From assembly GCF_023856365.1 (NCBI RefSeq), contig NC_064548.1, positions 17,594,461 to 17,658,460 on the forward strand: a stretch of 64,000 nucleotides of DNA, given 5' to 3'. Position numbers and translations under genes: made by a program. Under the pieces are notes generated by a model, which searched no databases, was not told the DNA's origin, and was given only the letters and a program-made list of their open reading frames with translations. Positions within the stretch are counted from its first letter, which is position 1. Each line of letters begins with the position of its first letter. Of this stretch, positions 2,881 to 53,600 are shown piece after piece. Source of the DNA: Brienomyrus brachyistius. Lineage: Eukaryota > Chordata > Actinopteri > Osteoglossiformes > Mormyridae.

Positions 2881-3439
2881 GTCATTTGGAGCACATTTTG
2901 GACATGATGACTCACATTGATTTATTTAGTATGCATTGGACATTTAAGACGACCTATATTTTACCAAAAAATCATCAGCCCAAAGCAAATGCTATACCTG
3001 TGGCATAGACCAAAAGTGATCCTTATTGTGAAATGTTCATCGCTACCCGATCTGTACATTATACCCTACCTGGACTGTTCCATCTGGGTTCAGTTTATGT
3101 ATAGTGTGTATTTGTGCATGTGTGTGCCAGTCACATCATCGACGTCTTGTTGGTGTTCCATGCCCAGGTTAGTGGTTAGCAGTCACCCTGGGTGCGTACT
3201 GTGCCCTACTCCAACTAACCATGCTCGGTCCTCAGGCACAGTATGGAGCGATCACACTAGTCAAACGAACTGTACTTTGGGGGGTCAAACCTGCTCTTGA
3301 GTACACCTTAACACACCTGTCTCACATATCCTAAAATAAAATGTAGGTGTATTTGACATTTGTACAAATACATCCTGTCCGCGTTTAAGATGCAGACTGG
3401 GTGAAAGTGAAGCTTGGGGTACGACTACAAGGTCAGCCA

Positions 3440-13374: not shown

Positions 13375-13845
13375 TCAGTGTCCCCAGGCTCCGATACCGA
13401 TCTCTTGCTTGTACCTGTTGGTAAGAGTATTAGCCTTTCGGGTCAATTTAGATAAAACTGTATGCAAGCCGTTCAGATGGAAGTGAAAGAGTTTCTCCAG
13501 GTCTTCATCTTCACCGTCCGTTTCTATTCTCGATAAGTCAAGGCCGGCTATACCTACTTTTTCCTTTCTTCTCTCGTCCATCTGTAGGACGCCCCATTCG
13601 ATGTCATTTCTGATGGATTTCAGCACAACGTAGTTACTGTACATGTCACCGCTGCATAAATACGTTGCCGATCCGGTGCCAGCCGACCTGATGGGGCTGA
13701 TGCTCTTTTCGTTTTCCAACGGCACGTCCCTCAAAAGGCTGGGAACCATAACAGTCTGGTCCATGTTATTCACAGCGCTAATAAACCGGTTCATGGCATT
13801 AAAGAGGGAATTCTTCTGATTGTGCGAATCTGAGATCTGCATCAT
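13375..13845 (-). CDS. mid1ip1: MID1-interacting protein 1 (Spot14 family)
   Basis: A 156-residue protein of the THRSP/Spot14-MID1IP1 family. Family members act in the cytosol to promote acetyl-CoA carboxylase polymerisation and lipogenesis, and MID1IP1 binds the microtubule-associated protein MID1. The sequence shows the family's conserved N-terminus ([10 protein letters not shown], then [17 protein letters not shown]), the central [16 protein letters not shown] helix, and the C-terminal [14 protein letters not shown] plus NRYKQEIG and the WGH end. It is shorter than human MID1IP1 (about 183 residues) because the Gly/Pro-rich linker is reduced. The coding region is one exon, as in other vertebrates. 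The start is the first of two adjacent ATG codons, matching the family's MMQI start. Just upstream, CAG acceptor-like sites suggest a spliced 5' UTR. The paralogue (a, b or 'l' in fish naming) cannot be decided here. Confidence 0.95.
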
Positions 13846-22504: not shown

Positions 22505-22650
22505 AATATGATTAGATTGAGCCCTGTGATGGGCTGGCCCCCCATCCTGGGTTGTTCCCTGCCTCGTGCCCATACTGTAGCTTCCGGGATAGTCTCCGGT
22601 CCTAGTAGGATAAGCGGTTTGGAAAATGGATTGATGGATGGATGGAAAAA
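22505..22650 (-). mobile_element. Dispersed CCATCC-tailed repeat, fragment
   Basis: GGGCTGGCCCCCCATCCTGG through GATAAGCGGTTTGGAAAATG and then GGATGGATGG is the reverse complement of the left half of the copy at 36812-37165. Only the tail half is present. Confidence 0.75.
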
Positions 22651-26015: not shown

Positions 26016-29000
26016 TTAAAAACACCCAGCAACATTTTTCCAGTGGGGGTCATTTTCATTTTCATATTGCTTAGTCTCGATCCAACGTATAAGTGTTGCC
26101 TGGTGGTTGTTGTCCGTTATTAGTGATCCTGGACTTGTTTTCTTCAGTTCTGAGAACCATTCTTTGACCAATTTAATCGAATGCTTTTGAAAACTTTGAC
26201 CATAAACCTGTCCGGGTTCACCAAAGGATTCATTGAACCCTCTTGTAGAATTATACTTAAACCTTGGGATGGTACCAAGGATTGTGTACTTAAAGGCATC
26301 AATAACTTGATCATTTTCTATGGCTTTCGTTGTTAGGCTGCGACACTTTGGGGATCTTGTACTAGGAAACTCGTCATGCACTCTTTTTGGAACATTGACA
26401 CACACAAGTCCATGAGTATGGTTTCTCAGCCATGCTTGCTTTGTTGTACTGGTTTGATTGGCTGTGGTATTTAATACTGATTGAACTGTCAATTCACTTT
26501 GGTTTAGTCCCACCTCAAGAAATGCATTAGCTAGCTTACTATTTTGGTTGTTCCTGGCAGCATCCACGATGCATATCAGTGGTGGCTGATGGTCAGCATT
26601 AATAAAATGGCCCATTCCTCTGTTCTGAATGCGAAGATCTGTGCATTTGCCTACTTTGCCAGTTTCTTCCTGCAGTAATTTACTTGTTTCCTCAATTCTC
26701 ACTTCACCTTCTGCCAGATACGAGTGACCTCCACTTATTCTTTCCAACCGTTCTTTGCATTTCAAAAAAGGGACCCACTGATTTGGATGCTGAATGAGAT
26801 TTTTAGCCTCCGAGAGTCTGAGTTCTTTGGCTCTAGATGAGATTTCCTCAACAGAACCTCCTGGGTTCATGCTACGAGCAACTGCATAATACATACAACT
26901 ATTATCTTTATTCTCCACTATCACTTCCCTATTGTCAATCCATGCATTGTAATGACCATTTGGGAATTGCTCACTCTTTGGTTTATAGATCAGTTCTATA
27001 GTCCTGGAAGCTGGTTTGGAGCTTGGGTTCAGTACTAACATTTTGTTAAGTTTTCCATGAGTTCCCTCTGTGAGAACAATGACTCGCGTTCCAGTCTGTT
27101 CAGCGTAATTCCTGAGACTAAATATTGTCCCAGGGGTCTCTGACTTCTTCACCTTCTCTGCATATGATTGCAAATGCATGACGTCATGGTGACTGATCTC
27201 TCCTGCTTCACTTAGTGGGCGGTTGACAATAAAGTTGTGCTTCTGACCGGCTTTAACCAATTCCAATGTTTCATTAGACCGTAAAATCTTTCTTATAGGT
27301 TTCATCAGCTGGCCATTTATTTTTTGCTGTGCAATATATTGAACATGGCCCAAAAATGTGTCCTTAATCGTTTCCATTAAAACGTCTTTCAGCTCTACAG
27401 AAATGACACCAGCTAATTCTTTCTTGAAAGCATGCAGGTACTGTAGGTCGCAATCTTCACAATCAATTTTTTTCTCCAACTTTTTTTTTCCAATAAGTGT
27501 TTTCAGTTCCTCATTGTACTTACTGCTGAATTCATTCAAAAGTTTGCCTGCTGCAACACAACAGTATTCAAATAGTGATGCCATAAATGTAACCTGAACT
27601 ATGGTAAAAAATGATTTCATCTTGGATTTTGGAAGTTGATCTTTAGCTTTGTTGATAACATCAATAACTGATCTTATCAGGTTCTTTTGCCAAGTAAGAT
27701 TTGTTGAAAATAAAACATGTTTAGAACACTCTGTGAAAACACTCATCATGTTATTCTTGATGTAGTCTTCCTTTTCAAGGTTTCTGATTTGCCTGCTCTC
27801 CTTAAAATGTGACAAGATGATTACATCAGTTGGTGAACTTAATGTCCCATTCATTATATCCTCCTCTATTTTTCTGGTAAGTTCTTCTTTAATCTTTTCC
27901 TCTATAGAATTCATTATTTTTTGCAAAATGAAATCCTCAAGTTTGGAGAGGAAAGTCAGTCCAGTTTGTTCAGCTGCCGTTTTAACTACAAATTTAGCTG
28001 AATTAAAAATATTTCTTTCTACAACTGTGTGAGACATCTGATTAACTGACCTTCCCAAAGCCTTAAGTTCTTTACCCACTCCTGTAACCGCTCTCTTACA
28101 TGCCCTAAAGCCTTTAGCAAGTAATTTTCCAACACCAAAACCTATGAGAGAGACAGCCACGGAAATGGCTTTCTCTATAGCCCAGTCTTTCCAACTGAAA
28201 ACTCCTGTTTTCATAACTTCAGCTGCATATTTAAAGTTAGATATCCCATCAGTAATAAGTTGTGTGCCGACAGTAGCTAATACGCCATAGGTTAGTGCAG
28301 TGAGAAATACTCCTGCGACCACTTGCGCAAGTCCAATAAAGAAAACAGCCAATCCGCCCCAAGAAAAGTGAGGCTTTTCTTGAACAGAAAACACACTGTA
28401 TAGCCCTTGTGATTTTAGAAGGCAAAGTTCTTCTGTGAGGTCATCTGGACAGTGTGACACCAGCTGAAATATAGGCCTTTGAATTGCTTCTGCTTTCCCT
28501 TTATTGTTCCTGATTTCTGTCAATTTTTCAATGGCCTCTTCAATGTTTTTTTGAAAAAAGTTGAAAACGTTTATTTTAATAATAAACTGCTTGTTCAGAC
28601 TTTCAGATGCTCCATCTTCCACAAGTGGCTGAGACAATTTTAAAAGATACTGACAAGCTGCACATGCCTCATGAAAGTTTTTCATGGACTCCAATGCCTG
28701 ATTTAAATCATTTATTGCAGTTGCGATGCAGTCAGCGCTGCCTTTGAGTAAAGTACAGCAAGCATGGTTGTAAAAGGCAATGGCGGCCCAGCTGGGATCC
28801 AGGTGCATTGCTCTCTCATAAAGCACCAACCCTTCTTCCCATCTCTTGTCCATAAGCTCATTATTGCCTAACTTAACATAGTGGTATATGCTGGAAATAG
28901 GAGATTCCTCCTTAAGACATTCATCTTTGGCCTTTTCCATGTCTTCAGTTAGACTTTTTAGCAATTTGTCTGTTTTTAATTGTTCTATTTCTTTTGCTTT

Positions 29001-32000
29001 TGTCTGCAGCCAAATGCCCCAGTATTCATTCATTATGCCAACAACGGTCATCCGATCTTGATCGTTGGCATTTTCATGTATGTATTTAAGTATTTTGCAG
29101 TACTCAAAAAACAAATTCTCTTGCAAATAAACCTCTTGCAAATCTGTCATCATGTATTCCACTTTCTCTTTTGAAAGAATGTTTCTTTTAAGTTTGGCAT
29201 CATGCAGAAATGACACTTGTTTTAGAGAACCCTCAAGATGATCGGTGCACATGACTATTTTGGCCGATCCAGGGTTTCCCTTTCGTGCAGTGCGCCCAAA
29301 TGCTTGGCGCTCTATTCGTAAGTTCTCAGCAAGGAAAGAGAGAATCACAAACAAGCCTCCATTGTTGTTCACTTCATCTGAAACCTTAATGTCCGTACCT
29401 CGACCAGCAAGATTGGTAGCAACTATGACATCACCGGGCTCCAGTATTTTGCCGATTTTACAATCTTTGTCACTGCGTGAGTAGAGGATGATTTCTCCGG
29501 AGATTTGACCTTGCAGTTCCTCATGCAGCTCTTTGGCCTTGTTAATTGTTTCACAGATCACCAGAGCTGCTCGCCCATTACTTGGAGTGACTTGATCTTT
29601 AACAACATTACATATCTCTGCTTTCCATTCTTCGTGTGAGCTTGTCACAATACCCTCAGTTTCGAATAACTTTTCTCTTGTGAAGGATGGCATTCTGGAA
29701 GCAGAGAGCTTTGGATACAAGTCTTGCAGAAGCTGAATTTCATCTTGATTCCCAAGCGTTCCTGTGGTCCCATAGATTTTTCCCTGGTACATTCTGAAGC
29801 AGGTGATGTTGGAGATGTAGTTAGTCACAACAGTCAAAGAGCTCAGTTTGATTCGGTGCTTCATTTCAAGAAACTGCTGCAGACCATCGCCCCATTTCTT
29901 GTTCAGCTCAACGATTCCAGTAGACTTGAAATCAACAGGACAGATCCTTTCCTTATCAACTATATATTCTCGTCCCTGTTTGAGCTTCAGTGCCAGGAAG
30001 GCATTCTGAATCCATGTGATCAATTTGTTATCCACAAGATTTTTCAGAAAGCCAGGAATGCTGATTTTGTCATCTTCTTTTTTTTCACAGGGGGTGAACT
30101 TCAGCTTTTCTTGAATCATTGCTGTGATTGGATTGTGAAGGATCTCTTCAGAGGAATACAGTGCGCAACATAAGCCTTTGTCTAAAACAAGAAAGCTAAG
30201 TTCCTGAATGTCTTCAGAAGACGTCTGTCTAGGATTAATTAACTGCAAGAATCCATTCTCATTTTGTTTGTAAACAACAATGTTGTACGGAAGGTAGTCC
30301 TTTACAATATCGACAAAGAAACTTATCATAGAATCCTTATTAATTGTTCCAAGTTTGTCAAGATACTGATTGTGCTCACTCTCACTGAGCTCTTTTACAA
30401 AACCTTGAGGGACTATGTTATTGTCCTCAGCAATCTGTAAAATATCCAGTGGGCCATTTATTTCACTATCTTCTGTATCAATTGCATCATACACTGCTTT
30501 GTGAAAAGGTACAACTGGTCCACGTACAGCTGTTTCACTTTCTGTTGGCATCAGACCATATTGACTAACATGGCCCCAAATGAGAGACAGGACTGTATTC
30601 AAGTGCTGTATGCCAGCTATATCGTCTGAAAGATATGTAAGTTGTACTCCATTGTCCAGGAGTAGAGAATCTACTTCGTCAATTATCACACACTGGAACT
30701 CACGGTTCAGCCTTGTGTCTTTCATTTCAAATATCTGTCTTAGATAGTCTGCTGCAAAGGCATCTACAGTCCCATAAATAATATCATTCTGGTAACATTC
30801 ATTTTGATCTTCATTTCCTGTGTTGGTGCCTACTGTTATTCCAAGTTCCTTGTAGAATTGAGACCATTCTTTGGAATCTCTTTGGCATAGAACAGAGGAA
30901 CTGGATACTATGTCAACCTTCTCCCCCCTTAGAACTCGCAATGCAGCATACATTGCTATAACACAAGATTTTCCCTCCCCAGTGCCTATTTCCAAGAGCG
31001 TTCCAGATTCAGACAGGGCAAAAACACACCAGCTAATCAATTGATTAAGTCGAGGCCACCATCCCATTTTGCTGTGCACAACATAGCACAGTGCTGAAAG
31101 AACCTCTTGCAGGTCTTTTACTTCTCTGCTGATGCTAAGCTCATGAATTCTTCTCATAGCAAATTTCATCTTTACCCCAGACAAAATTAATTCCTGGACA
31201 TGTTTTACGACACTGTATGCCGTGTTTATTGTTGCCTCGTCGATTTCTTTAAATTCTCTTATCTCCTTGAAAATGTCATCAATGCTTTTTGATCCTTCGT
31301 TCTTAAACTGCTTTTCTAAATCTTTAATGTCAGTCATTGTTTGGATTGAACACAAGATTTGTAGGATAGTTTGGTCATTCTTGTTCTTCCACTCTGGAGA
31401 AATCTGATATATTGTCAACAAATTAATTAACTTCATGATGGATAGGTTGCCATCTCTAAAATGGCTCTCCAGTAATGTTTCTAGGAGTTTCAGCACTTGC
31501 ACTGAGGTCCAAAGTTGTCCAGCTAATAAATTTTGGATTAGCTCTGTTACTGTTTTCTCGCCGCATAACTGCATGGCTGTAGTCAACAAAAAATCTGAAC
31601 AAGCTTCTTCTCCATTAGGCAGGAAATTGATGTCATCACGGGCAAGAATGCGTTTTGTCATTGCATTGAGAAATTTCAGAGTGGTTTCCTCTTCGGATGT
31701 AAACTCGTGTTTGGTGAGATTCTGGAATATAGCCAAGATTTGGCCATTAGCATCAGGCATGTTTTCGACCGTGGTGTGAAGGGTCTGGAATAAGGCTCTG
31801 ATGAACACACCGCTTTGTTCCGTGTGTTTTTCCTGACTAAACAGTCTTTTCATCAGATTTGTCTGGCATCTTTGTATGTATTTTAAAACCACGTTGTCGC
31901 TACTTTTCGAGAAAAAGCTGTTGTTCAAAACGAGGCATTTTTTGTCAACAACAAACCCTCGAGTCAGTCGTTTATGCTGGTCTATCTGCAGTCCTGAAAA

Positions 32001-35000
32001 GTACTGAAGGTAATGGGCAATATATTCATCCATAGTAGAGAAAACAATGTCTGAGACAAATGCAGAATCATTATCCTCCTTGATTGATCTAGATGAAATA
32101 CCAAAATGCTTGTAGAAGTCAGACCACTCATGCATCTGTTGGTTGCATTCAATGGTAGAACTTAGGACAACGTCCACTTTACTTCCCATTAATACCTGCA
32201 TTACTAGAAACATAGCAGTGACACATGGGTCCTCATCAAAACCAACAATCTCCAGTGTCTCACTGTCCTCATGCAATATTAACAGGCACCACTGAATCAT
32301 CTGACTTACTGAGGGCCACCATCGTTTTGTGTAAAAAACTGCCTTACACAGATAATGCAAGGCTAACTCCAAATCTTTTATTTTTAACTTCTTTCTTTTC
32401 AAAGGATTTGGCAACGTATGTTCTCTGGTTTTGTTTTCAGCTTGAACATCTAAACACTTCAGGATAGAAAGGACTATTTGTTTAATTTTGATGATATCGG
32501 CATTCTCAATGATTCTAGATGACTGCATGTCACTCAGAATTTCATCAATTTTGTGTTCATTTTGACTTTTCATTGTGTTTTGTAGAGTCCGGTAAAAACT
32601 CTCTGAATCAACAAGGTAACGAAGATCAAATAGTGATTGTCCACTCTCATCTTTCCATGAGGGAAGGATGTGATTTAACTGCACTAGTTGGAGGATGTTG
32701 TAAATATCAGTCTCATTGTCATATTTTTCGGTTAAAATTTTGAAAAGTCCAATAGCTTCAGTTGGGGTCCATTGAGTGACGTCCACGAGTTTTAAGAGTA
32801 TTTTGATAGATCCTGTGGCTTCTTTATTAAGATTCTCCAAACGTGATAGCAGGAATTTGAAACACTTCTTCTCCACATCTAGTATGGTTATTTTTAAAGC
32901 ACTTTCAACAACCTTCTGTAGGGAAATCAAAAGAGTTTCAAGAAATCTAACAGTAAATATTTCCACTGTTGGAAAATTCACGCCTGACCATTTTTCAGCA
33001 ATGTACAGTGCGTTTAGTTCCATATCTTGTGCATCTACAAAGATGTCTATAAAAGTCAAAAAAAGGGCTTGAGTTAAAAGAAAACACTGATGCATGTCAC
33101 ATTCTGACTGACAGATTTCTTCCACCAGAAAGTGTATATGATCTGATGCACTCACCAAAAAAATTCCACCAGACTCTGGCCTGAACAGGATGCATAGTTC
33201 TGTTAGTAACACTTGCGCATGTTTGAGTGTCTCAAAAGATGGAAGACGATTCACCCACTCATCAAAAAGAAGATCTTGTAAAACACTTATTACCTTCTTC
33301 AGCTGAACAGAACTTAGCTGGCTAAGGACAAATTCCGACAAAATGTTGCATCTTGAGGAAAGGATTTCCATTAGTGTAGAAGCATTGTTCTCTGGCGATG
33401 TTTGAAAGTGGTTGTAAAACATTTTTACCACCTCTCTTTTGTCAGTTTTATCTCGCATACTAACTTTTTCCTTTACACTTTGGAGGGTCTTTTTAATCTC
33501 TCCGTTCAACTCCATTGTTTTTTGTCTCTCTTCTTCCTGTCGTCTTTCCTCCTCTCTTCTCAGTCTCTCTTCTTCCTGTCGTCTTAACACCTCTCTCCTC
33601 AGTCTCTCTTCTTCTTGTCGTCTTTCCTCATCTCTCCTCCATCTCTCTTCTTGCTGTCGTCTTTCCTCCTCTCTCCTCGATCTCTCTTCCTCCTGTAGTC
33701 TTTCCTTCTCTCTTCTCAGTCTCTCTTCTTCCTCTAGTTGTCTTAACATCTCTCTCCTCCATCTCTCTTCTTCCTGTAGTCTTTCCTCCTCTTTCCTCGA
33801 TCTCTCTTCCTCCTGTAGTCTTTCTTTCTCTCTTCTCAGTCTCTCTTCTTCTTGTCGTCTTTCCTCCTCTCTTCTTTGTCTCTCTTCTTCCTGTCGTTTT
33901 TCCTTTTCTCTTCTTAATTTTTCTTGTTTCTGTCGTCTTTCCTCCTCTATTCTCAGTCTCTCTTCTTCCTGTTGTCTTAACACCTCCCTTCTCAGTTTCT
34001 CTTCTTCCTCCTGTTGTCTTTCCATCTCTCTTCTCAGTCTCTCTTCTTCCTCTAGTTGTCTTAACATCTCTCCCCTCCATCTCTCTTCTTCCTGTAGTCT
34101 TTCTTTTTCTCTTCTCAGTCTCTCTTCTTCTTGTCGTCTTTCCTCCTCTCTTCTTTGTCTCTCTTCTTCCTGTCGTTTTTCCTTTTCTCTTCTCAATTTT
34201 TCTTGTTTCTGTCGTCTTTCTTCCTCTATTCTCAGTCTCTCTTCCTGTCGTCTTAACACCTCTCTTCTCAGTCTCTCTTCTTCCTGTCGTCTTTCCTCCT
34301 CTCTTCTCAGTCTCTCTTCTTCCTTTTGTCTTAACACCTCCCTTCTCAGTTTCTCTTCTTCCTCCTGTTGTCTTTCCATCTCTCTCCTCAGTCTCTCTTC
34401 TTCCTGTCGCCTTTTCTTCTCTCTTAGTCGCTCTTCTTCCTGCTGTCTTAACACCTCTCTCCACTGTCTTTCCTCTTCCTGTCTTCTTTCCTCCTCTCTC
34501 CTTTGTCGTTCTACTTCCTGTCGTCTTTCCTCCTCTCTTCTCAATCTTTCTTCCTGTTGTCTTTTCTTCTCTCTTCTCAGTCTCTCTTCTTCCTGTCGTC
34601 TTAACGCCTCTATTCTCAGTCTCTCTTCTTCCTGTCGTCTTTCCTCCTCTCTTCTCAGTCTCTCTTCTTCCTGTCGTCTTAACGCCTCTATTCTCAGTCT
34701 CTCTTCTTCTTGTCGTCTTAACACCTCTCTTCTCAGTCTCTTTTTTTCCTGTCGTCTTTCTTCCTCCCTTCTCAATCTCTCTTCTTCCTGTCGTCTTTCC
34801 TCCTCTCTTCTCAGTCGCTCTTCTTCCTGTAGTCTTTTTTTCTCTCTTCTCAGTCTTTGTTCTTGTCGTTTTTCCTCCTCTCTTCTCAGTCTCTCTTCTT
34901 CCTGTCGTCTTTCCTCCTCTCGTCTCAGTCGCTCTTCTTCCTGTAGTCTTTTTTTCTCTCTTCTAAGTCTTTGTTCTTGCTGTCTTTCCTCCTCCTTTCT

Positions 35001-35561
35001 CAGTCTCTCTTCTTCTTGTCGTTTTTCCACCTCTCTTCTCAGTTTCTCTTCTTCCTGTCGTCTTTTTCTCTCTTTCCTAAGTCTCACTTCTGCCAGTCGT
35101 CTTTCCTCCTCTCTCCTCTGTCTTTCTTCTTCCTGTTGTCTTTCCCCCTCTCTTCTCAATCGCTCTTCTTCCTGTCGTTTTTTTTTCTCTCTCCTCAGTC
35201 TCACTGTTTCCTGTTGTCTTTCCTCCTCTCTCCTCCGTGTCTCTTCTTCCTGTTGTCTTAACACCTCTCTTCTCAGTCGCTCTTCCTCCTGTTGTCTTTT
35301 CATCTCTCTTCTTTGTCTCTCTTCTTCCTTTTTCCTTTGCTCAAGCCTCTGTTGTTCTCTCTTGAGCTTCTCAAAACAGTCACAACACTCGTGCGCATCG
35401 TCACATCCAACCTCTCTGTAATACTGTCCTCCATTGAACACATACACATGTCTTCCATTGATCGTGGCTTTGTGGTAGTTATCAAATGAAACACATGGAG
35501 GCAGACTCTTGCCACACTTGTAGCACTTAGCGCCATAATATTCTGAGGGTGCATTTCCCAT
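26016..35561 (-). CDS. Giant SecA-like ATPase with coiled coil and OTU-like C-terminus
   Basis: A single uninterrupted frame for 3181 residues. Start: GTCATGG, a good Kozak context; MGNAPS fits N-myristoylation. Residues 13-62 hold C13, C16, C23, C53, H57, C59, C60 and C62, possibly zinc-binding. About 64-680 is Glu/Arg-rich 13-residue coiled-coil repeats. About 1075-1260 is a SecA-like ATPase module whose Walker A and DEAD-type motifs are lost. About 1490-2110 is an intact SecA-like motor: GWWP, GTGEGKS (1526-1532), YGTVDAFAADYLR, DEVD (1628-1631), KKWGDGLQQ, YGTTGTLG, GRGTD (2053-2057) and QAFGRTARKG (2086-2095). A TPR-like region lies near 2220-2310 and hydrophobic stretches near 2395-2435 and 2461-2485. 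The C-terminus has GHYNAW (H2870) and DNSCMYYAVA (C2889), like OTU protease motifs in reversed order. SecA drives protein translocation in bacteria and plastids; here the substrate and location are unknown. Similar metazoan proteins are often auto-labelled 'protein translocase subunit SecA'. Intronless, unlike its neighbour tspan7. ATPase assignment is firm; function is not. Confidence 0.9.
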   Translation of the reverse strand: MGNAPSEYYGAKCYKCGKSLPPCVSFDNYHKATINGRHVYVFNGGQYYREVGCDDAHECCDCFEKLKREQQRLEQRKKEEERQRREMKRQQEEERLRREVLRQQEEETRRREEERQQETVRLRREKKKRQEEERLRREGERQQEEERQRREEERRLAEVRLRKERKRRQEEEKLRREVEKRQEEERLRKEEERQQEQRLRREKKRLQEEERLRREEERRQEEERLRREEEKRQEQRLRREKKRLQEEERLRREEERRQEEERLRREEERRQEKKRLRREVLRRQEEERLRIEALRRQEEERLRREEERRQEEERLRIEALRRQEEERLRREKKRQQEERLRREEERRQEVERQRREEERRQEEERQWREVLRQQEEERLREKKRRQEEERLRREMERQQEEEEKLRREVLRQKEEERLRREEERRQEEERLRREVLRRQEERLRIEEERRQKQEKLRREKEKRQEEERQRREEERRQEEERLRREKERLQEEERWRGEMLRQLEEEERLRREMERQQEEEEKLRREVLRQQEEERLRIEEERRQKQEKLRREKEKRQEEERQRREEERRQEEERLRREKERLQEEERSRKEEERLQEEERWRREMLRQLEEEERLRREKERLQEEERSRREEERRQQEERWRRDEERRQEEERLRREVLRRQEEERLRREEERRQEEERQKTMELNGEIKKTLQSVKEKVSMRDKTDKREVVKMFYNHFQTSPENNASTLMEILSSRCNILSEFVLSQLSSVQLKKVISVLQDLLFDEWVNRLPSFETLKHAQVLLTELCILFRPESGGIFLVSASDHIHFLVEEICQSECDMHQCFLLTQALFLTFIDIFVDAQDMELNALYIAEKWSGVNFPTVEIFTVRFLETLLISLQKVVESALKITILDVEKKCFKFLLSRLENLNKEATGSIKILLKLVDVTQWTPTEAIGLFKILTEKYDNETDIYNILQLVQLNHILPSWKDESGQSLFDLRYLVDSESFYRTLQNTMKSQNEHKIDEILSDMQSSRIIENADIIKIKQIVLSILKCLDVQAENKTREHTLPNPLKRKKLKIKDLELALHYLCKAVFYTKRWWPSVSQMIQWCLLILHEDSETLEIVGFDEDPCVTAMFLVMQVLMGSKVDVVLSSTIECNQQMHEWSDFYKHFGISSRSIKEDNDSAFVSDIVFSTMDEYIAHYLQYFSGLQIDQHKRLTRGFVVDKKCLVLNNSFFSKSSDNVVLKYIQRCQTNLMKRLFSQEKHTEQSGVFIRALFQTLHTTVENMPDANGQILAIFQNLTKHEFTSEEETTLKFLNAMTKRILARDDINFLPNGEEACSDFLLTTAMQLCGEKTVTELIQNLLAGQLWTSVQVLKLLETLLESHFRDGNLSIMKLINLLTIYQISPEWKNKNDQTILQILCSIQTMTDIKDLEKQFKNEGSKSIDDIFKEIREFKEIDEATINTAYSVVKHVQELILSGVKMKFAMRRIHELSISREVKDLQEVLSALCYVVHSKMGWWPRLNQLISWCVFALSESGTLLEIGTGEGKSCVIAMYAALRVLRGEKVDIVSSSSVLCQRDSKEWSQFYKELGITVGTNTGNEDQNECYQNDIIYGTVDAFAADYLRQIFEMKDTRLNREFQCVIIDEVDSLLLDNGVQLTYLSDDIAGIQHLNTVLSLIWGHVSQYGLMPTESETAVRGPVVPFHKAVYDAIDTEDSEINGPLDILQIAEDNNIVPQGFVKELSESEHNQYLDKLGTINKDSMISFFVDIVKDYLPYNIVVYKQNENGFLQLINPRQTSSEDIQELSFLVLDKGLCCALYSSEEILHNPITAMIQEKLKFTPCEKKEDDKISIPGFLKNLVDNKLITWIQNAFLALKLKQGREYIVDKERICPVDFKSTGIVELNKKWGDGLQQFLEMKHRIKLSSLTVVTNYISNITCFRMYQGKIYGTTGTLGNQDEIQLLQDLYPKLSASRMPSFTREKLFETEGIVTSSHEEWKAEICNVVKDQVTPSNGRAALVICETINKAKELHEELQGQISGEIILYSRSDKDCKIGKILEPGDVIVATNLAGRGTDIKVSDEVNNNGGLFVILSFLAENLRIERQAFGRTARKGNPGSAKIVMCTDHLEGSLKQVSFLHDAKLKRNILSKEKVEYMMTDLQEVYLQENLFFEYCKILKYIHENANDQDRMTVVGIMNEYWGIWLQTKAKEIEQLKTDKLLKSLTEDMEKAKDECLKEESPISSIYHYVKLGNNELMDKRWEEGLVLYERAMHLDPSWAAIAFYNHACCTLLKGSADCIATAINDLNQALESMKNFHEACAACQYLLKLSQPLVEDGASESLNKQFIIKINVFNFFQKNIEEAIEKLTEIRNNKGKAEAIQRPIFQLVSHCPDDLTEELCLLKSQGLYSVFSVQEKPHFSWGGLAVFFIGLAQVVAGVFLTALTYGVLATVGTQLITDGISNFKYAAEVMKTGVFSWKDWAIEKAISVAVSLIGFGVGKLLAKGFRACKRAVTGVGKELKALGRSVNQMSHTVVERNIFNSAKFVVKTAAEQTGLTFLSKLEDFILQKIMNSIEEKIKEELTRKIEEDIMNGTLSSPTDVIILSHFKESRQIRNLEKEDYIKNNMMSVFTECSKHVLFSTNLTWQKNLIRSVIDVINKAKDQLPKSKMKSFFTIVQVTFMASLFEYCCVAAGKLLNEFSSKYNEELKTLIGKKKLEKKIDCEDCDLQYLHAFKKELAGVISVELKDVLMETIKDTFLGHVQYIAQQKINGQLMKPIRKILRSNETLELVKAGQKHNFIVNRPLSEAGEISHHDVMHLQSYAEKVKKSETPGTIFSLRNYAEQTGTRVIVLTEGTHGKLNKMLVLNPSSKPASRTIELIYKPKSEQFPNGHYNAWIDNREVIVENKDNSCMYYAVARSMNPGGSVEEISSRAKELRLSEAKNLIQHPNQWVPFLKCKERLERISGGHSYLAEGEVRIEETSKLLQEETGKVGKCTDLRIQNRGMGHFINADHQPPLICIVDAARNNQNSKLANAFLEVGLNQSELTVQSVLNTTANQTSTTKQAWLRNHTHGLVCVNVPKRVHDEFPSTRSPKCRSLTTKAIENDQVIDAFKYTILGTIPRFKYNSTRGFNESFGEPGQVYGQSFQKHSIKLVKEWFSELKKTSPGSLITDNNHQATLIRWIETKQYENENDPHWKNVAGCF
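33535..35370 (-). repeat. Coding tandem repeat, 39-bp unit (13-residue charged heptad-like repeat)
   Basis: Inside the SecA-like gene, about 45 imperfect units of the type LRREEERRQEEER are tandemly arranged, most of them 39 bp. Variants (VLRRQ, EKKRL, IEALRR) recur in blocks, so longer segments were copied as units: for example, the segment with RRQKQEKLRREKEKR appears twice. Frames on the opposite strand stay open for up to 660 codons only because of this composition. Confidence 0.85.
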
Positions 35562-35950: not shown

Positions 35951-36811
35951 AATCCATTGTCTGGAGGAGAAGAGCAAAGAGCAACTCATCACATGTCCTA
36001 CAATACACAATGGAGAATGAGGATATCGGTACATATTATCAGTAATTTGAGTTTTTTTTTAGCTTTGAAGATTCATCCACACATCCATCTACTCCATCCT
36101 CAAACACAAACTTTTGTGGAGAAACACATCCCTGAGTAACCACCTATCTCAGGAAAATGTTAATAGACCGTTTAACCTTAGACTGCAATTGTGCAGCAAG
36201 AACCTTGTTATGTCCGATGATGTATCGTTTGTTTCTTTTTCCTTTCTTCCCTCCCTTTTTCATCCCTATCTGGGGTTAGCATTTTAATGGGTCCCTGATG
36301 TCATCCTAGCAGCAATGGACATGCACATCATTAACACACTCATGGACGGATGACATTTGAAGTTTCCCTTTCACACTTTGTACATGGACATGCTGCCTCT
36401 GGTGTACCCTGTATGAACATGTCGATGTGTGATTATTGGTTGGGGTGTAATTTTTGCTTGTGATTTATGTCCGCTAGGTTATGTGACTTGCACACCGTAC
36501 TCTCGGTATCTATAGGGGTGAGTGCCATTTATTTTCACCATTTGCATTTCTCCTGGTCTTGATTTATCTAGGGAGAAGGTTTGGGTGTTGTATTTTTTGG
36601 GGTTGTTTTCTGATGAGATAAATTTATTATGCTGTAGTTAGTGGTACAGTGGCAGAATTCTCAACTGGCTCAAGGGAGGTTCAAGTTCACTCTCTGGCCT
36701 TCACCCTGGTTTTCTTTTGGCTTCTTATTTTGGCCTCGGCTCACCCTGAAGCCGTACAGCTTTTCTCTGGTCCTTGTTACCTTTGTTTTATTGTCTGTTA
36801 CCCAAAATATC
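35951..36811. other. Intergenic DNA, no gene recognised
   Basis: Short frames only; no domain, splice pattern or repeat body recognised. Confidence 0.45.
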
Positions 36812-37165
36812 CATCCATCCATCCATTTTCCAAACCGCTTATCCTACTGGGTCGCGGGGGGTCCAGAGCCTATCCCGGAAGCAATGGGCACGAGACAGGG
36901 AACAACCCAGGATGGGGGGCCAGCCCATCGCAGGACACACTCACATACCATTCACTCACACATGCACTCCTACGGGCAATTTAGCAACTCCAATTAGCCT
37001 CAGCATGTTTTTGGACTGTGGGGGGAAACCAGAGGACCTGGAGGAAACCCCACGACGACATGGGGAGAACATGCAAACTCCACACACATGCAACCCAGGC
37101 GGAGACTTGAACGCGGGTCCCAGAGCTGTGAGGCAACAGACCTAACCACTGCACCACCACGTCTA
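36812..37165 (+). mobile_element. Dispersed CCATCC-tailed teleost repeat, good copy
   Basis: It runs from (ATCC)n and TTTTCCAAACCGCTTATCC through a CCATCGCAGGACACAC block, an AACATGCAAACTCCACACA block and a CCAACCACTGCACCACC-like end. At least three further copies or fragments occur in the window (15190-15515, 22505-22650, 49815-50030). The repeat is very common in fish genomes; its class is not assigned here. Confidence 0.8.
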
Positions 37166-39075: not shown

Positions 39076-39077
39076 TA

Positions 39078-40713
<1,636 letters not shown>

Positions 40714-40715
40714 TA

Positions 40716-41040
40716 TGCATAGAACTGTATAGAAAGTGACTTTAGTGATGACTGTGAAATACAGCACCAGTGTAAAATCTGGTGAAAATCATTTTGTATT
40801 TGATAGAGGGTAAACATGTTACTGCAAATGGTACTCCATTTTGTTTACTTTCGCTTTGTATAGTGTGGGCAATGACCAAGCCGATTAGTTGGGGTTAAGA
40901 AAGTTCCTCTTTATTTTTATTTTGAGAAACGGACACCATAATATAAACCTTTTTAGTTTCATATTCCCTTTTAATAATGTCCAAATATACATGTGACCAG
41001 GTATTACCTGAAATGAGAGCCATCACCACTGAAGACTGGT
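40716..41040. other. Intergenic DNA between the Tc1 element and the satellite
   Basis: No feature recognised. Confidence 0.45.
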
Positions 41041-41537
41041 ACACTATGCTATGATACGGTATGCTATGATACACTATGCTATGATACGGTATGCTATGAT
41101 ACGGTATGCTATGATACAGTATGCTATGATACACTATGCTATGATACGGTATGCTATGATACACTATGCTATGATACACTATGCTATGATACGGTATGCT
41201 ATAATACACTATGCTATGATACGGTATGCTATGATACACTATGCTATGATACACTATGCTATGATACGGTACGCTATGATACATTATGCTATGATACGGT
41301 ATGCTATGATACACTATGCTATGATACGGTACGCTATGATACATTATGCTATGATACGGTATGCTATGATACACTATGCTATGATACACTATGCTATGAT
41401 ACGGTATGCTATGATACGGTATGCTATGATACGGTATGCTATGATACACTATGCTATGATATGGTACGCTATGATACGGTATGCTATGATACGGTATGCT
41501 ATGATACACTATGCTATGATACACTATGCTATGATAC
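41041..41537. repeat. 15-bp tandem satellite, 33 copies
   Basis: Unit AC(GG/AC)TATGCTATGAT, 15 bp, repeated 33 times with almost no length change. Main variants are ACGGT and ACACT types, with rarer ACATT, ACAGT and TACGC forms. Because 15 is a multiple of 3 and the unit lacks stops in one frame of each strand, both strands have long open frames (MIRYAMIHYA-type and YHSIPYHSIV-type). These are composition artefacts. Confidence 0.97.
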
Positions 41538-41609
41538 GTGATCCAAGCATATTCTGTGTGACTTAAGTTATCATCAGCATATCTTGTGCATATGACAAAG
41601 ATTCAGTTT

Positions 41610-50629: not shown

Positions 50630-53600
50630 CTGTGGGCAGGGGGTGGGGGGTGGGACACACGTCACCTGCTGTTTCTTAGAAAATGCTGAGCATAAAAACA
50701 TCTTCATTTGCGATTGAATAGATTGTCACTGTCACAGAGACAGACAGGGTGAGACAGAACGAAAGAAAGAAAGAGCTGAATAAGAATGAAAGTGAAAGAG
50801 GGAAATGGAAGGAATGTAAAGGAAAGAGAGAGTTCATCGCTGGGATTGGAATACCCATTGGATTTGCTGACACGACATTGTTCATCAAGCAGGTTAAAGA
50901 AAAGACCGTAGCACATAATCTTATGCTAAGAACAAACAGAAAGCAGCTGTTGGAGAATGCGATATTGAATCCACCAATCAGAAAACACTCTGCTCTGTCC
51001 GGAAGAAATTAAAATCGCATCCTTTTATTTAAGGTGACAGACCTTTCCAGTTGTTGGTTGTAGGAACCCTTGATTATGCTGCTAGTGACAGGAAAATGTA
51101 TCTTTTTAATTAAAATACCCCCAGTCGGCCTGTGCTGCCACCCCGGCAGAGGAGCTCAGTCATACATATTGATGTGGGAATTTCCACCTTGGGGGGGGGG
51201 GGGTCCTAATATGTCCCATCCATCTCACCTGAAATGTTCAGATCATGCCACGCTGCAACCTCATTAAGTGGAAAGGAGAGGCTGAGCTCTGCATGTGTAT
51301 TAATGGCCCCCCCACCCCCAGGATGGAATGGGGGCATTGGGACAGAGCCCTAGGCAAGCTTCCCCACCGCCCCCCAATGATGCTTGCTCCTCGCACCGTG
51401 AGAGGGGCAGGGGGATAGGTCAGAAGATGGCAGTTGACTTCCTCAGCATGCTAAGGAAGGAAAACACTACATTTCTGTCAGGTTCCTGTCTTGTCATTTC
51501 CCTGTTTGGCCAGCAGGTGTAGCTAGTCACCCATTTCCTTGTGTTTGAGTTTTCTGTGACTTGTGAATTGACCCACACCTGCTTCTTGCTGCCCCTAGTT
51601 TTTAGTGTTTGTTTGATTGTAATGGCTGACACCTGTTCCTTGTTACCCTTGTGTGTAAATTTGTGTATATGTGTTTATACATTTGATTGGTCATTGTGTC
51701 TGTAGTCTTGTTGCCCTATGTTCACTCCTGTATGTCTTTCTTGATTGTGTTCTTTGAACCTGTTTGGTATTAGTTTCTCCATGGGATTTTTTCCTAACTT
51801 GTTGAAGTTCTTCTTTAATTAACCTGCCTTTGTTAGACCCTCCCCCCCCCATGGTCCTTTTGTTCCTTGTGTATTTTTCATTAAAGTTCATTAATGCCCT
51901 TTGTTTTTGTTAGCCACTACGTGCATTGTCCCTTTTTCCTTTCACCATGCCCGTATATAACATTTGCCTGTCATCCATCATCCAAGGGGAGCCTTCATTT
52001 GTTGCCCGTGGTCTCTGGTGAATATCTATTACCGTAATATTCCCCTGATGCACGTGGTTTCCTCGGCAATGCCGGCGTACCTGTGAGAAGGCGATGCCGA
52101 ACGCCACCCCAGCGATGATGCTCATGTTGGTCTCGATGAAGGAGGTCACCAGCTCGTAGCAGCCCTGTGCAGAGGCATCGGTTAATGTGTTACGGGTATG
52201 AAGGCGGATATTCACACTGTCATAACGTTTCATGAATGAAACGATAATAAATTGATGTTAGTAACCAAGGGTGTCAAATTGCAGTTCTGGGGGGGGGGGG
52301 GGTGAGCCCTGTGTAGCTTAGTTCTTTCCCTGTTCCACCACAAATGATTCAGCACAAAAGCTATGTGGTAATTAGCACAAGGAGTTGAATCAGATGTGTT
52401 AAATGAGGGGAAACCCAAAAATGTGCAGGGTTCTGGCCCCCCAGGACTAGAGTTTGACACCTGTATTGTAGAAGATGGATGGATAGATCCGCAGCTTCTT
52501 CTTGTGGACTCTGGGTTGTAAATTTCTGCCTTTTTTAAAGTATAGGCAGGAGTAGATGTGAATGTGAATCATTGAAGAGAATCCTGGGTAATGTAGTTTC
52601 GTCAAATGAGGATTAGCTCAAAGCCTTGAAGGACAATAATCACACAAGGTCCTGCCACTGACCTGCTGATGCACCTTGCTGGGGGCAGCAGTGGCGTTAC
52701 GCAGGTCCTGGGGGCTGCAGTCAGACTGGTTGGCGCAACAGCTGGACGGGATGCCGCTGGTGGGGTAGTAGACACTGGTGAACCAGCTGGTGTAGTTCAA
52801 CACCCCGCAGCATCGTAGCTGGAGGAGAGGAGAGAGGTACACATGTATGTGCAAGTACCAGTGCAGATTTGATAAAAACATCCCCACAAAGAAAGAAAGA
52901 AACTCCTGAAAACCTGGCATACCAGCAATAAAGAAACACCTTTTGTACAATCTCAGCTATTTTGTTTGTTTTATCTGCCTTCAATTCCTTACTGAAAGTG
53001 TCAGGAATTATTAACTGCAACAAAGAGTGTCAACTGGAAGCCAATTAAAGAGACTGAGATGTGCCTGTGTGTGTGTGTGTGTCTGTGTGGCTGCATGTGT
53101 GTGTGTCTGTGTATGTCTGTGTGTGACTCTGTATGTTTGTCCCTGCCATAGTGGCACAGGTGCTCCCGGGTCCATTCAGCGTTCACAGCAAGTCTTACAG
53201 TACTGATAGGTAGGTGTGCGCATGGTCAGATCAATTGTGCTGTTGAGAGGGAAATAGATTTTTCTTTCTCTTCATTCATTTGGTTTTAGTAATGCCACGG
53301 GTCATTTAAAAAAAAAGTATGCATTGAGTCTGTAGTGTGACTTTGTCTCCAGGTGAATTGCTATGGGACCGGCCCACCTGATTTTCGGCCGGCCGATTGA
53401 CAGCTTGATTTTTGGCTCCGCCGTTGGTGTGTCCATATGTGTGTGTGAGCACTGGGCCCACCTGAACATGCAGCGCTGCTCCAGAGAGGGCGCTCTTTCA
53501 GCGGGCCTTTAAGAGCACTAGCACTACAGCTGGCTAACCAGCTCACTGAGAAGCCCTCGCTTCGACTCACGCTGCGTTGCACGTGGTCCACAGCCTGGCT

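Follow-up and report, generated by a model that had tools for sequence, protein, structure and literature searches.

The window analyzed in this study is a 64,000-nt stretch of the Brienomyrus brachyistius genome (NCBI RefSeq assembly GCF_023856365.1, contig NC_064548.1, positions 17,594,461 to 17,658,460 of the forward strand). It holds an intact gene for a SecA-type motor, the core of which is common to giant toxin-like proteins of bacterial symbionts. The gene was likely acquired from bacteria, and its product is predicted to be a membrane-bound, ATP-driven protein-threading device; this reading as a whole is about as likely as not. Observed were the open frame with its motor motifs, a SecA fold by prediction, the order of modules common to animal and symbiont proteins, and the differing C-terminal ends of three near-identical symbiont pairs. 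To our knowledge, no SecA-type motor has been described in vertebrates. The main interest beyond the original prediction, which was made from the letters alone, is the kinship with the symbiont giants.

The open frame and its SecA-type motor

The minus strand was open down to one stop across 26016..35561, and the plus strand was stop-rich on translation. Four other open reading frames (ORFs) of at least 250 residues were found in the window (660, 483 and 278 residues, all within the low-complexity part of the SecA-like frame, and a 367-residue transposase), and because these were far shorter, the 3181-codon frame was not attributed to chance. The single 9.5-kb frame first predicted was confirmed by ORF listing and translation; its lack of introns was borne out for the coding part only, and its strand, which had not been given, was minus. 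Contamination or an assembly artefact might be suspected where a fish assembly shows a bacterial-type domain, but the SecA-like protein was placed on a 29.1-Mb contig by the protein search listing, its GC content was 0.40 vs. 0.42 for the window, many named fish had relatives 40-49% identical, and the flanks held coding sequence presumed, from its motifs, to be mid1ip1-like and tetraspanin-type. Both flanks are fish sequence, and an artefact is exceedingly improbable.

Motor motifs were located at residues 1526 (GTGEGKS), 1596, 1628 (DEVD), 1888, 1930, 2053 (GRGTD) and 2086, in the order originally read; nucleotide-binding domain (NBD) 1 carried Walker A and DEVD, and NBD2 carried GRGTD and motif VI. 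The profile search proposed with the original prediction returned Pfam SecA_DEAD at residues 1445-1937 (E 3.8e-33, 115.4 bits, cut-off 24.6), with intact motifs. The 24 distinct PDB sequence matches were all named SecA (best E 9.9e-34) and aligned to two stretches, 1486-1638 and 1858-2104. The predicted fold was aligned with SecA over 577-584 residues, and with motor-only SecA over 387. PF01043 and the wing/scaffold families had no Pfam match in the fish protein; PF01043 was above cut-off in one relative, P0059.

TGEGKS, DEVD, GRGT and GRTAR-G were kept in 26/26 rows of a chosen alignment of relatives, and all four motifs were found by loose patterns in 165 of 183 database proteins, which agrees with the earlier view that the ATPase was retained. 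The fish protein is very probably an active SecA-type ATPase. A fossil motor, retained as a structural scaffold or to unfold proteins in the cytosol and doing no translocation, is very unlikely: much of the protein is coil and helical regions, and its duplicated ATPase lobe is already without Walker A, but the main motor's catalytic residues do not vary across those 26 rows, and no other part of the protein is as well conserved.

Kinship with symbiont giants and animal relatives

A species-genome collection was scanned with the motor alignment, and the best 80 of the 129 relatives it gave were retained. Among bacteria, the closest kin found were proteins mostly of symbiotic or parasitic species. 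Long frames of 1,097 (contig-cut) to 4,507 residues, as read here, were present at loci L002-L025, which by title were 10 Rickettsiales (with Arcanobacter, which we take to belong there), 4 Parachlamydiales, 2 Legionellaceae and 8 others (3 unplaced Alphaproteobacteria, a Gammaproteobacterium, a Neisseriaceae, 2 Bacteroidota and one unplaced). Plasmid frames were added from Candidatus (Ca.) Megaera (about 5,200 residues), L. geestiana (one) and Bandiella (one). The symbiont set comprised 30 frames (L001-L025 and L081-L085), and other SecA was represented by 16 of the 54 loci L027-L080. By direct comparison, the fish protein was 27-42% identical to most symbiont frames over motor stretches.

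The fish protein has the layout of the symbiont giants, in which the SecA motor is followed by a helical segment and a hydrophobic module. A hydrophobic-module profile built from 176 animal-set proteins matched 27/30 symbiont-set frames, with the best match always after the motor, and 0/16 other SecA frames; the three misses (L015, L020 and L025) all run off contigs. The helical-segment profile matched 19/30, and the OTU-like profile matched only L001 and L024, the latter at two places, one of them upstream of the motor. None of the 30 was matched by the profiles for the cysteine domain at the N-terminus or for the tail. The ATPase is fused to other regions, as had been proposed, and its N-terminal MGN/cysteine domain and tail are those without a profile match in the 30 bacterial relatives.

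The symbiont giants differ at their ends. Pairs L081/L082, L019/L022 and L015/L016 were about 95-100% identical over most of their length and 25-41% identical in the last blocks, the drop being gradual in L081/L082 and L015 also being cut by a contig end. Toxin-type Pfam domains were found in 3 of the 10 symbiont-set frames scanned: Colicin_D (E 5.7e-18) and a WHH nuclease (E 2e-15) at the C-terminal ends of L016 and L081, and an ADP-ribosyltransferase-type match in L004. No toxin family was matched in the remaining 7, L008 and L082 having only a sub-threshold RickCE match. According to PMC3482391, polymorphic toxins are characterised by variable C-terminal toxin domains. L081 and L082 are IMG/VR contigs; their SecA giants are 96% alike but end differently at the C-terminus, one of them in the WHH nuclease. 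On the Ca. Megaera plasmid (L083, 347-20815), two adjacent giant genes of 15.7 and 4.8 kb, both annotated as SecA-like domain proteins, lie near a recombinase.

Trees were built with 76 rows (main tree; 3/79 dropped) and 51 rows (28/79 dropped, including long branches). In the main tree, where 9 of the 32 'animal set' rows carried no taxon, the animal set lay on one side of a branch with a Shimodaira-Hasegawa-like approximate likelihood ratio test (SH-aLRT) value of 85, or a starred 99 with L001. Animal-set and symbiont rows did not cluster with canonical SecA; they were separated at a starred 100, by a long stem, from the 16 other SecA rows of the same scan (11 in the 51-row tree), plastid and model-organism SecA having been left out. 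The only forks that nested animals among symbionts (94 and 94) were unstarred, and in the 51-row tree animals formed one clade at a starred 99 and the symbionts another at 81. Because the animal rows group in both trees, one animal-side origin is supported. Ancestry shared by the animal family and the symbiont giants is highly probable, and since SecA is a bacterial invention, transfer was probably from bacteria to animals. Of the horizontal acquisition originally proposed, the bacterial kinship stands, but the closest bacterial kin found form a separate clade of giant toxin-like proteins and are not ordinary SecA.

The nearest outgroup of the animal-symbiont clade in the main tree was L049 (1391-14690), an Elusimicrobia contig from a metagenome-assembled genome (MAG) with a giant SecA-type frame of 4,433 residues stop to stop and no hydrophobic module. 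L001, a 3.96-kb contig of a Myxococcales-labelled MAG, codes for a member of the animal type that reaches into the first part of the OTU-like domain; with its animal-like behaviour, it is probably mis-binned eukaryotic DNA.

Protein relatives were collected by a first search (142 found, best 120 listed) and a second search from a relative (321 found, 120 listed), and the two sets overlap. Among the best 120 of 142, P0002-P0058 were nearly all ray-finned fish by name (39-56% identity), and P0059 onward were 25-36% identical, including a second vertebrate subfamily. Coelacanth, bichirs, sturgeon, a toad (Bombina) and the crayfish Procambarus were among the relatives listed, as was the hemichordate Ptychodera among the 120 listed of the 321. 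Some relatives were auto-named 'Protein translocase subunit SecA'. The system had been suggested to be undescribed; no paper on an animal SecA-like family was found by literature search, but with so many relatives it is not a one-off. The frames of some relatives nearly fill their contigs (P0006, 2420 residues and 48% identical, has 7,260 coding bases on a 7,851-bp contig), and this gene is thus not alone in having its coding region unspliced. The lack of introns, from which a retro- or horizontally derived origin had been argued, need not point to a retrocopy.

At least two copies were found in several species (Parambassis, Collichthys, Prochilodus and Cololabis). The crayfish protein (P0048, Procambarus clarkii) was 41% identical over 96% of the query and has the dead ATPase copy as well. 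A tree built from 56 animal-set rows placed it within a branch at a starred 99, whose other 14 rows were ray-finned fish, counting P0023, which lacks a species name; cross-animal transfer, contamination and deep paralogy are candidates for its position. These multiple copies, the crayfish placement with its shared dead ATPase copy, and the plasmid location and differing ends of symbiont relatives would suit a selfish element, that is, a toxin-antidote or mobile cassette spreading among aquatic-animal genomes and not serving host defence. The inverted repeats found in 20000-42000, however, look unlike the ends of a gene-holding element, and this explanation is considered unlikely.

Most rows of P0066-P0120 form the second vertebrate subfamily (25-33% identity, fish and toad, multi-copy), of which P0066 has another MG-starting N-terminal domain. 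P0026 stands for 119 member sequences in one 90% cluster, on contigs of up to about 12 kb, possibly reflecting high copy number or repeated sampling.

Proposed action and known systems

In the proposed mechanism, the N-terminal glycine would be myristoylated and the hydrophobic module would enter a membrane, while the SecA clamp would hold a polypeptide and ATP hydrolysis would push it. A polypeptide substrate is rather more likely than a nucleic acid. The alternative, that in animals the SecA-like core was turned into a RIG-I-like RNA or DNA motor (a nucleic-acid helicase or sensor) and signalling is done by the enzyme-like end, is quite improbable. The passenger of the threading device may be the protein's own C-terminal part, a putative OTU-like protease and nuclease-like tail, just as the bacterial relatives may thread their toxin end; this is offered with some doubt. 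Animal copies might be kept as cytosolic effectors against intracellular microbes, and an immune role is put forward tentatively. A fuller scenario is rather unlikely: in it, animals would have adopted from intracellular bacteria a protein injector that is self-contained and driven by ATP, added a myristoyl anchor and coil, and expanded it into many copies, giving vertebrates a Sec-type protein pump that drives enzyme domains through the membranes of invading microbes or their vacuoles.

If the protein is active, fish hold a family of protein-threading ATPases with a body plan common to toxin-like proteins of intracellular bacteria, which would be a new route from microbial weapons to animal genes and a candidate class of cytosolic effectors in fish. 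Movement of the C-terminal end of SecA-bearing toxin giants would also be open to study outside bacteria.

SecA-like domains are noted in Amoebophilus effectors (PMC3482391), giant actinobacterial toxins (PMC8195603) and phage WO (PMC5062602). The symbiont giants compared here were the Rickettsiales, Legionellaceae and Chlamydiae frames found in this study; they are in the same SecA clade as the fish protein and have the same order of motor, helical segment, hydrophobic module and variable end. Distinctive of the fish protein are its N-terminus, its charged coil, the second ATPase lobe, which is dead, and its tail. Housekeeping SecA/SecA2 resembles it in motor motifs and predicted fold, but the fish protein is in a separate long-stem clade, is three to four times as long and has no known SecY partner. 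Planctomycetes and others have secondary SecA_DEAD proteins (PMC4452313), which likewise have a SecA_DEAD core outside the housekeeping gene; the 16 frames of other SecA-like proteins used here, several of the 54 fetched being from Planctomycetes, need not be the proteins of that paper, and they differ in lacking the hydrophobic module and lying outside the animal-symbiont clade. Latrotoxins and the phage WO latrotoxin-CTD are another large protein kind common to animals and endosymbionts (PMC5062602). The fold predicted for the tail of the fish protein faintly resembles that of TseN, a DNase effector that bacteria use against fungi (PMC12574953, PDB 9J9W), with 130/152 residues aligned.

Other domains and neighbouring features

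Features are collected in Table 1. The second, degenerate SecA-like lobe and the hydrophobic, OTU-like and tail domains had been overlooked in the original prediction. The MGN start is presumably an N-myristoylation-type motif; the N-terminal cysteine-domain profile matched 55/184 animal-set proteins, 46 of which start with MGN. The charged coil is encoded by a minisatellite at 33524-35329 (46.4 copies). The second lobe, N-terminal of the motor in a helical region, was 29% identical to the motor over 323 positions (E 2e-36, two-sequence comparison), and its Walker A reads GxEEDPC in the family consensus. It was found by blastp in at most 60/184 proteins, some matches being doubtful; 32 of these fitted the pattern, most of them with a G...DPC-type string, and no such string was picked up in the remaining 28.

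Table 1. Positions of features in the window
Feature	Position	Strand	Residues	Remarks
Whole open frame	26016..35561	minus	3181 + stop	ATG at 35561, stop at 26016 (ORF listing)
MGN start and CxxC...CxxC cysteine domain	35352..35561	minus	1-70	Common to other fish and coelacanth
R/E/Q-rich charged coil	33447..35354	minus	about 70-705	Encoded by 39-bp minisatellite
Degenerate second SecA ATPase lobe	31782..32444	minus	about 1040-1260	Walker A lost (here GFDEDPC)
SecA-type motor	28992..31229	minus	1445-2190	Intact motifs
Walker A	30966..30986	minus	1526-1532	GTGEGKS
Walker B/DEVD	30669..30680	minus	1628-1631	
Helical segment	28542..28994	minus	2190-2340	TPR-like by eye
Hydrophobic module	28062..28424	minus	2380-2500	Peak hydropathy of protein
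OTU-like domain	26697..27209	minus	2785-2955	His motif (2870) precedes Cys motif (2889), swapped order
C-terminal tail	26019..26684	minus	2960-3181	
mid1ip1-like frame	13375-13845	minus		Flank of SecA-like gene
Tetraspanin-type exon	near 52812	minus		Flank of SecA-like gene

The hydrophobic module had no PDB match up to E 10, and helices lie between it and the OTU-like domain. For the latter, PF02338 was matched by three of four separate Cys-side fragments (E 0.013-0.026, all below cut-off); among 104 OTU-like rows, His was present in 96 and Cys in 82, with His first in sequence. The tail motif N-x-DH-x-P was invariant in 9/9 aligned rows, and tail profile 1 matched 83/184 animal-set proteins. 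In 23/184 proteins (including P0061-P0064 and P0122) another type of tail comes after the OTU-like domain; it has the pattern SFHL..S..GxNAG..N..AS..YN..E and looks nuclease-like by eye.

A presumed Tc1/mariner-like element, named from its motifs, lies at 39076-40715 and looks young, with 179-nt terminal inverted repeats (98% complementary) enclosing the 367-residue transposase frame at 39389-40492. Inverted copies of a dispersed-type repeat (22515-22643 and 36809-36942) flank the ORF, 14 kb apart. A minisatellite of coding length at 40895-41566 reads as YHSIV repeats on one strand and MIRYA on the other.
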